Of a DNA stretch of 64,000 bases, positions 59,653-60,013 are shown one piece after another. Numbering within the stretch: the stretch's first letter is position 1; every line of letters starts with the position of its first letter. The stretch spans positions 1 through 64,000 of the forward strand of contig CANLQE010000002.1 of the NCBI GenBank assembly GCA_947493215.1. Reading direction: 5' to 3'. This DNA is from an uncultured Sphingomonadaceae bacterium. Lineage in GTDB: Bacteria > Pseudomonadota > Alphaproteobacteria > Sphingomonadales > Sphingomonadaceae. Made by a program: the position numbers and the translations under genes. A model generated the notes under the pieces. That model did not search any database. It was not told where the DNA came from and was given only the letters and a program-made list of their open reading frames with translations.

Positions 59653-59704
59653 ACTACATCTGTAGTTTCATCGACTGTAAATGTAAATGTGTAATTTTAC
59701 ATTT
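59653..59704 (-). promoter_or_regulatory. BlaI-type operator and neighbouring repeats
   Basis: ACTACATCTGTAGT (59653-59666) contains the TACA-N2-TGTA core typical of BlaI/MecI operators with perfect arms. Nearby ATGTAAA (59681-59687) and TTTACAT (59696-59702) form a second, wider inverted pair, with a TGTAAA direct repeat (59676-59686). Together they would control the blaI-M56 promoter. Confidence 0.65.
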
Positions 59705-59841
59705 GCGGCGAATGGAGGGCCTGCCGCGTCCTCGATCGTGACAGATTTGTAAGAGCCTTTTTGTCGAAAAAGTTTACAACAACGGCCAAGTTAACAACGC
59801 TTTAATCATCTAAGTGCTTAACAAATATGATATCCAGAAAA

Positions 59842-59858
59842 CTGGCACGAGCGGTGCA
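59842..59858 (+). promoter_or_regulatory. Sigma-54-like promoter upstream of candidate sRNA
   Basis: CTGGCACGAGCGGTGCA matches the sigma-54 consensus (YTGGCACGRNNNTTGCW) at every position but one (G for T in the -12 element). The invariant GG (59844-59845) and GC (59856-59857) are separated by 10 bases. A transcription start is predicted near 59869. Confidence 0.6.
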
Positions 59859-59868
59859 AGGTTACGAG

Positions 59869-60013
59869 TGTTCCTATGTTTCACACCCATGAAACAAAAA
59901 ATGAGGGGGACAGCGTACTGGTCTCCGCCGTCCCCTCTCATTACAGATTTTAGACTACTCACTACTTATACCCACATTCAAACGGCTCGGATCTCCTAAT
60001 CCGGGCCGCTTTT
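59869..60013 (+). ncRNA. Candidate small RNA with three stem-loops
   Basis: About 145 nucleotides between a sigma-54-like promoter and an intrinsic terminator. Stem 1 is perfect: GTTTCA (59878-59883) with TGAAAC (59890-59895). Stem 2 is long: TGAGGGGGAC (from 59902) pairs with the GTCCCCTCTCA region (to 59940) with one bulge and a loop containing GGTCTCC. Stem 3 is the terminator (59983-60008). C-rich single-stranded loops (GTCTCC, CTCCTA) resemble the anti-Shine-Dalgarno loops of many alphaproteobacterial sRNAs. A 61-codon frame overlaps it but has no ribosome site and runs into the hairpins. No known sRNA family is recognised. Confidence 0.55.
59983..60012 (+). terminator. Intrinsic terminator of the candidate sRNA
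   Basis: CGGCTCGGAT (59983-59992) and ATCCGGGCCG (59999-60008) form a 10-base GC-rich stem with one G-U pair around a CTCCTA loop, followed by CTTTTG. No protein gene ends nearby on the plus strand, so it must serve a non-coding transcript. Confidence 0.75.

Follow-up and report, generated by a model that had tools for sequence, protein, structure and literature searches.

Small RNAs (sRNAs) that act by base pairing and depend on sigma-54 are a known kind of regulator with several examples, among them Qrr (LuxO) and GlmY. In these systems transcription of a trans-acting sRNA is driven by an enhancer-binding regulator, and the sRNA pairs with mRNA leaders. The RNA described here would act in the same way; it differs from them in having no Rfam family match, another activator and another predicted target. 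Alphaproteobacterial sRNAs of the cuckoo/alpha-r14 type carry C-rich anti-Shine-Dalgarno sequences in hairpin loops. The present RNA is unlike them in its seed (CUGGUCUC), promoter type and lineage, and again no Rfam match was found.

SuhB of Sphingopyxis granuli TFA is a 61-nt, growth-rate-regulated sRNA that acts on thnR, and is described as a trans-acting sphingomonad sRNA that lowers translation at a leader (PMC6563040), a mode of action that we predict for the present RNA as well. By that description the two are set apart, the present RNA being ~145 nt long with a PrsR-type sigma-54 promoter, and SuhB (61 nt, under other control) was set aside as its identity. The promoter arrangement resembles that of the PrsK-PrsR/sigma-54 PEP-CTERM regulon, in which motif 1 is 17 nt long, ends in TTTACA and is followed, after a spacer with a mean of 62.8 nt (SD 10.6), by a 17-nt sigma-54 motif (PMC1569441). 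PrsR is the proposed binder of this PEP-CTERM box (Haft 2006, PMC1569441). In a DAP-chip assay in D. vulgaris, promoters of PEP-CTERM genes were enriched by a regulator that had been predicted to control them (PMC3333781), and in Aquincola high transcription of a PEP-CTERM gene requires RpoN1 (PMC9850573). Our locus shares with the regulon described there (PMC1569441) the length and 3′ end of the box, the spacer and the sigma-54 motif; it differs in that its promoter drives a non-coding RNA.

The predicted transcript and its promoter

The window, the whole stretch of DNA that we analyzed, comprises 64,000 nucleotides from an uncultured Sphingomonadaceae bacterium. The locus contains the following features:

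59762-59778, + strand: predicted PrsR activator site (PEP-CTERM box) TGTCGAAAAAGTTTACA, 17 nt, separated by 63 nt from the sigma-54 element downstream
59790-59813, + strand: conserved sequence GTTAAC..TTTAATCATCTAA, lying between the box and the promoter, its columns partly conserved in a 28-locus alignment
59842-59858, + strand: sigma-54 -24/-12 promoter CTGGCACGAGCGGTGCA, with GG (59844-59845) and GC (59856-59857) separated by 10 nt
59869-60013, + strand: predicted sRNA transcript, ~145 nt, its 5′ end placed from the promoter and its 3′ end from the terminator
59877-59896, + strand: hairpin 1, of clade-dependent sequence (GTTTCACACCCATGAAAC type, CCTCCTTTCAGGAGG type and others)
59900-59942, + strand: hairpin 2, with a long, GC-rich stem and, at 59916-59925, the 10-nt loop UACUGGUCUC
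59918-59926, + strand: seed CUGGUCUCC, complementary to GGAGACCAG, which lies two bases upstream of the start codon of the flp pilin gene
59983-60013, + strand: intrinsic terminator, with a stem at 59983-60008 followed by CTTTT, and UCUCCUAA in the loop region

The predicted RNA (59869-60013) folded at -46.3 kcal/mol, compared with a mean of -27.7 in 200 shuffles (z -5.3), and no shuffle was as stable. The sequence of hairpin 1, at one and the same position, was of at least two dissimilar types, GTTTCACACCCATGAAAC and CCTCCTTTCAGGAGG, and the hairpin fell outside the RNAalifold consensus. Eight of the nine bases of the seed CUGGUCUCC lie within the loop of hairpin 2, the last C being paired in the predicted stem, and this 9-mer is the only one of its kind on either strand of the window. 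Between hairpin 2 and the terminator, the predicted fold leaves a largely unpaired segment that carries UACCC, and the terminator loop holds a second UCUCCU motif resembling an anti-ribosome-binding-site sequence. A terminator scan over 2 kb yielded one terminator against 1.6 expected, which is not above chance, and the case therefore rests on conservation.

A blastn search found the locus in 29 of 32 same-genus genomes including its own (L001-L029). A covariance model added the locus of a further genome of the genus (G024), and the remaining two genomes, G001 and G008, both incomplete, gave no locus by either method. The model also matched 59867-60013 in the own genome, which as a training sequence matches by construction. 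When 60 genomes were searched by blastn, matches at E<=1 were obtained in 44, those outside the genus being short and at E 0.036 or worse. A consensus fold was computed on 27 copies, without L025 and L026, which are both cut by contig ends. It contained 26 pairs, with 96.7% of cells paired versus 91.8% in shuffles, and slid controls reached at most 51.6%. Eight consensus pairs were changed on both sides, compared with 4.7 in shuffles (4 of 500 shuffles reached 8), and doubly changed cells numbered 42 versus 15.2 (0 of 500 shuffles reached 42); further pair types, 20 versus 19.0, were not above the shuffles. The terminator helix was 97.5% paired, and 5 of its 12 pairs were doubly changed. Homologues contained indels, including a one-base insertion in the stem of L022, and thus no protein reading fits the transcript. 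These results suggest that the stretch from ~59869 to 60013 is a conserved, structured and apparently non-coding transcript.

Rfam 15 gave four matches at E<=10 in the window segment 55000-64000, none reaching its gathering score, and the only one overlapping the sRNA had an E-value of 9.8 and lay on the opposite strand; on 14 homologous loci only two tRNAs reached gathering scores. Among the matches listed in a search of the open-licence literature, we found no description of this RNA or of an sRNA acting on Flp pilin in sphingomonads. The sRNA thus appears to be new as a family, as a PrsR-regulon member and as a predicted pilin regulator.

Several proposals of the initial annotation bear on these results. 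It had read 59842-59858 as a sigma-54 promoter with intact GG-N10-GC spacing, and the element is present there and stands ahead of the conserved loop in all 29 same-genus loci. Its view of the locus as a non-coding RNA with three hairpins and an intrinsic terminator agrees with the z-score, the paired changes and the indels that break any reading frame, and, on the conservation with covariation that it had named as a check, the locus was present in 29/32 same-genus genomes with 42 doubly changed cells versus 15.2 in shuffles. Its remark that the RNA belongs to no known family holds for Rfam 15 in the window and at the 14 homologous loci.

The upstream box, PrsR and the spread of the element

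An alignment of the upstream DNA of 28 loci, in which the motif TGTCG-N7-T-N-ACA was first seen, placed a conserved box before the promoter. The box was found in 28 of the 29 same-genus loci, with a spacer of 63 nt in 27 and 64 nt in one; in the 29th, L015, it differs by one base. TGTCGAAAAAGTTTACA agrees with the published motif 1 in length, in its 3′ end TTTACA and in spacing, the described features by which the two were compared. The box at 59762-59778 is therefore predicted to be a candidate PrsR site of the PEP-CTERM/exosortase regulon. The GTTAAC..TTTAATCATCTAA element downstream of it is possibly a DNA-bending site or a second activator site. Farther upstream, beside a BlaI-type operator, the window contains TGTAAATGTGTAATTTTACATTTG (59682-59705), an imperfect inverted repeat that close relatives keep.

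The own genome encodes PrsR (TIGR02915, 671 bits; cut-off 502.6), PrsK (TIGR02916, 546.9; cut-off 300) and the XrtA-associated glycosyltransferase EpsB2 (TIGR03013, 497.6; cut-off 393.35) in one cluster, and an adjoining PrsT-like gene scored under its cut-off. Only one PEP-CTERM match exceeded the Pfam cut-off in this genome (21.8 bits; cut-off 20.7), its NCBIfam scores being under the cut-offs. Upstream of this gene (G000 C3:25145-25700, L224) we found TGTCGGATTAACTTACA, a 63-nt spacer and TTGGCAAGAAAATTGCT, the same arrangement as at the sRNA. With the strict box-plus-promoter pattern, the sRNA was the sole match in the own genome, and the PEP-CTERM copy was off by one box letter. The box at the sRNA precedes a non-coding RNA and not a PEP-CTERM protein gene, and what we claim for the two is shared control. 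Two other box-like sites of this genome, C1:2575240 and C1:304120, were rejected, with no sigma-54 element at the expected spacing; both contain GTCGGTTAATTTTACA, and one lies a few kb from prsK-prsR.

The genus covariance model was run against 298 family genomes and gave 6 strong matches, all in the same genus, and 10 weak ones. Four of the weak matches (L095, L099, L100 and L101, from two other genera) had a recognizable box, promoter and loop on a stem of different sequence. The other six (L094, L096, L097, L098, L102 and L103) look like chance terminator matches and were discarded. A pattern consisting of box, promoter and CTGGTCYC loop, with spacers of 50-80 permitted, was then applied to a collection of one genome per species (84,980 species), and at least 120 stretches matched. 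The box and promoter letters are demanded by this pattern, and their conservation in this set is therefore not independent evidence. Among the 120 matches listed, the spacer was 63 or 64 in 116, the loop lay within a hairpin of at least 8 closing pairs in 99 (6.1 expected with arms shuffled), and 64 different stem arms were present. The hairpin 2 loop thus recurs on unlike stems in other genera.

Record labels of the matches listed, by our reading of the names, assigned 106 of the 120 to a sphingomonad group, 11 only to Alphaproteobacteria, Proteobacteria or Pseudomonadota, and 3 to others (Leeia, Accumulibacter and Cytophagales). In the match labelled uncultured Cytophagales (L125), the element is of the sphingomonad kind and is flanked by BlaI and M56 genes; its bin label is therefore probably wrong. 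Sphingopyxis granuli NBRC 100800 has the element too (L150). Two matches were rejected as sRNA loci: L115 (Pacificimonas pallii), apparently a signal-peptide gene behind the same promoter, and L136, a misfit with a spacer of 57. L116 is truncated where its stretch stops, and in L148 no such hairpin accompanies the box, spacer and promoter; all four were kept in every count over the 120 matches listed.

In the family set, the pattern was present in 79 of 298 genomes and 35 of 96 genera, and a reversed-pattern control in none of the 298. We inspected 46 of the 79 genomes individually. Two pattern matches, in G188 (L346; 52-nt spacer) and G243 (L347; 51-nt spacer), come with signal-peptide reading frames and were rejected, which leaves at most 77 pattern-positive genomes. 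In the other direction the pattern undercounts, as the RNA of G007 was found by the model and missed by the pattern. PrsR was detected in 253 of the 298 genomes, namely in 76 of 79 pattern-positive versus 177 of 219 pattern-negative genomes (Fisher p 7e-4, the 79 including G188 and G243), and the strict pattern is accordingly absent from 177 PrsR-positive genomes. The pattern-positive genomes without a PrsR match were G125, G206 and G329, with completeness of 97, 67 and 90%.

Some further arrangements were observed in these sets. L115, L346 and L347 have PrsR-type promoters just before signal-peptide frames that resemble PEP-CTERM or secreted protein genes. Two pattern matches per genome occurred ~0.4-1.2 kb apart in G280 (C5), G316 (C6) and G238 (C81), all of genus g72, and on separate contigs (C88 and C135) in G080. 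At Erythrobacter-type loci, the next terminator-like hairpin repeats the loop, as if the seed had been duplicated; the repeated loop is CTGGTCC in L132, L147, L192, L193, L195 and L211 and TTGGTCA in L126 and L222. In G267 (L349), the first hairpin too has GGTCTCC in its loop.

The initial annotation had suggested a link to a nitrogen or stress response. The sigma-54 promoter is compatible with such a role, and with nine strong sigma-54 activator domains (>170 bits) encoded in the own genome another activator could act here; however, the conserved upstream site fits the PEP-CTERM box in sequence and spacing, the PEP-CTERM gene of the same genome has the same arrangement, and the element co-occurs with PrsR. 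The suggested link is not supported, the conserved site matching the predicted PrsR box instead. With a PrsR-type box upstream, a nitrogen origin was set aside, and we consider it highly improbable that the RNA is part of a nitrogen (NtrC) or general stress response.

The genomic neighbourhood could also point to a cis element or a small-protein gene tied to the adjoining grxD-bolA or blaI. Among the 120 matches listed, GrxD was encoded within 1 kb downstream in 69, farther away in 17 and not found in 34 (12 of them with short flanks), and BlaI was encoded within 250 nt upstream in 43. In 106, a gene for BlaI or an MBL-fold protein lay no more than 250 nt upstream or one for GrxD no more than 5 kb downstream. 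Against this, the RNA stays while its neighbours vary, grxD being convergent and kilobases distant in some loci, and indels break reading frames whereas paired changes keep the stems. Since the grxD neighbourhood is frequent but variable, a cis role on grxD is unlikely, and a cis element or small-protein gene as the whole explanation seems to us very improbable. We favour a trans-acting sRNA under a predicted PrsR/sigma-54 promoter.

The flp pilin leader as predicted target

We searched the own genome for the complement of the loop ahead of a start codon (GGAGACCA-N0-14-ATG) and obtained 17 matches (16 sites), compared with 8 for a reversed control. Four of the GGAGACCA-ATG sites stand at open reading frames of at least 50 amino acids: one is the Flp pilin gene, and the others are L232 (rpmI-like), L240 and L242. 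The flp gene (PF04964, 64 bits) has GGAGACCAG two bases before its ATG, and a tandem flp paralogue upstream is without the GGAGACCAG site. The initial annotation had considered the C-rich loops typical of RNAs that pair with ribosome-binding sites, and the loop of hairpin 2 does match a predicted one, that of the flp pilin gene.

Flp was found in 272 of 298 family genomes; of the 79 pattern genomes, 76 had it (p 0.10, not significant), and those without it are G188 and G243, whose matches are not the RNA, and the draft genome G073. The flp leaders were compared in 42 RNA-positive genomes from 20 genera (5 of the genomes from the own genus), with the best-scoring flp copy taken from each. Of these 42 genomes, 41 had GGAGAC in the 20 nt preceding the flp start, versus 2 of 7 PrsR-negative genomes (p 6e-5). 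The seven are G072, G084, G136, G166, G253, G293 and G324, the last three assigned by their absence from the PrsR match list. The site also occurred in 12 of 14 PrsR-positive, pattern-negative genomes (G007 being set apart as RNA-positive by the model), where it could be plainly conserved or could face an RNA too divergent for the pattern.

The loop contact was not longer in matched than in mismatched pairs of sRNA and leader: 2838 of 20,000 permutations were as good for genomes and 4908 for genera. Its duplex energies somewhat favoured matched pairs (83 and 618 of 20,000 permutations). A nested co-fold of the RNA with the flp leader did not form the loop contact, a method that cannot form a kissing contact.

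When pairs were read side by side, we found that the 5′ part of the sRNA is complementary to the flp leader farther upstream, in each group differently. In G096 and G233, UGGUCUUC pairs with GAAGACCA; in G342, AGUCUUCAGUA pairs with UACUGAAGACU over 11 nt; and in G270, GCAGUCUC pairs with GAGACUGC. This second contact spans just 5 nt in four genomes of the own genus and 7 nt in a fifth. The longest Watson-Crick run had a mean of 6.36 in matched versus 5.33 in mismatched genome pairs, and none of 20,000 permutations was as good for the 42 genomes or for the 20 genera; with G-U pairs allowed the result was weaker (302 for genomes and 1321 for genera), and duplex energies gave 0 and 355, all of these permutation figures being other than clean p-values because the contact had been noticed by eye and the segment limits chosen before testing. 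Control leaders, taken at 60 pattern loci each from other genomes than the flp test, gave no signal, with 2092 (GrxD), 4928 (BolA) and 1339 (zeta-type inhibitor) of 5,000 permutations as good. At the level of sequence comparison, the sRNA and the flp leader change in step between genera.

These data also bear on whether flp is the target. The sRNA could be real and PrsR/sigma-54-driven with GGAGACC simply the conserved ribosome-binding site of the pilin gene, and the loop could act on other, similar mRNAs. The 12 of 14 pattern-negative genomes with GGAGAC before flp are in line with this, as are the failure of the loop run to separate matched from mismatched genomes and the 17 own-genome matches (16 sites) versus 8 in the control, four of the sites being at open reading frames of at least 50 amino acids. 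However, at the upstream contact sRNA and flp leader change in step between genera, the leaders of three neighbouring genes gave no such signal, and GGAGAC stands at flp in only 2 of 7 PrsR-negative genomes. We consider it unlikely that flp is not the target.

Proposed mechanism and its meaning for sphingomonads

The best explanation, and probably the right one, is that the locus encodes a trans-acting sRNA that is activated by PrsR and sigma-54 and blocks flp pilin translation while matrix production is on. This reading is drawn from sequence, namely from architecture, conservation, paired RNA changes, complementarity and coordinated sRNA-leader change. PrsK would phosphorylate PrsR, which would bind the box at 59762-59778 and activate sigma-54 RNA polymerase at 59842-59858, as is thought for PEP-CTERM matrix genes. 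The sRNA loop CUGGUCUC would pair with GGAGACC(AG), the putative ribosome-binding site of the flp mRNA for the Tad/Flp pilin, and a lineage-specific second contact between the 5′ part of the sRNA and the flp leader would add to this in many genera. Cells that are producing exopolysaccharide and PEP-CTERM matrix would thereby have pilin translation blocked, both the repression and the physiological switch being what we infer.

A broader proposal, which we put forward tentatively and with less than even confidence, is that across the sphingomonads Tad pili are switched off by one ancient PrsR/sigma-54-driven sRNA as the exosortase/PEP-CTERM matrix is switched on, with a two-site contact to the pilin leader that has been re-tuned in each genus. 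The sRNA may be a steadier member of the PrsR regulon in this group than the matrix proteins that gave the regulon its name.

If true, sphingomonads, for which we found one studied sRNA, SuhB, in the literature, would gain a widely conserved regulatory RNA, and the PrsK-PrsR system would acquire an RNA target. The matrix and Tad pili programmes would be linked by one testable base-pairing contact, and since sRNA and leader change together, the target could be tested directly in a laboratory sphingomonad.
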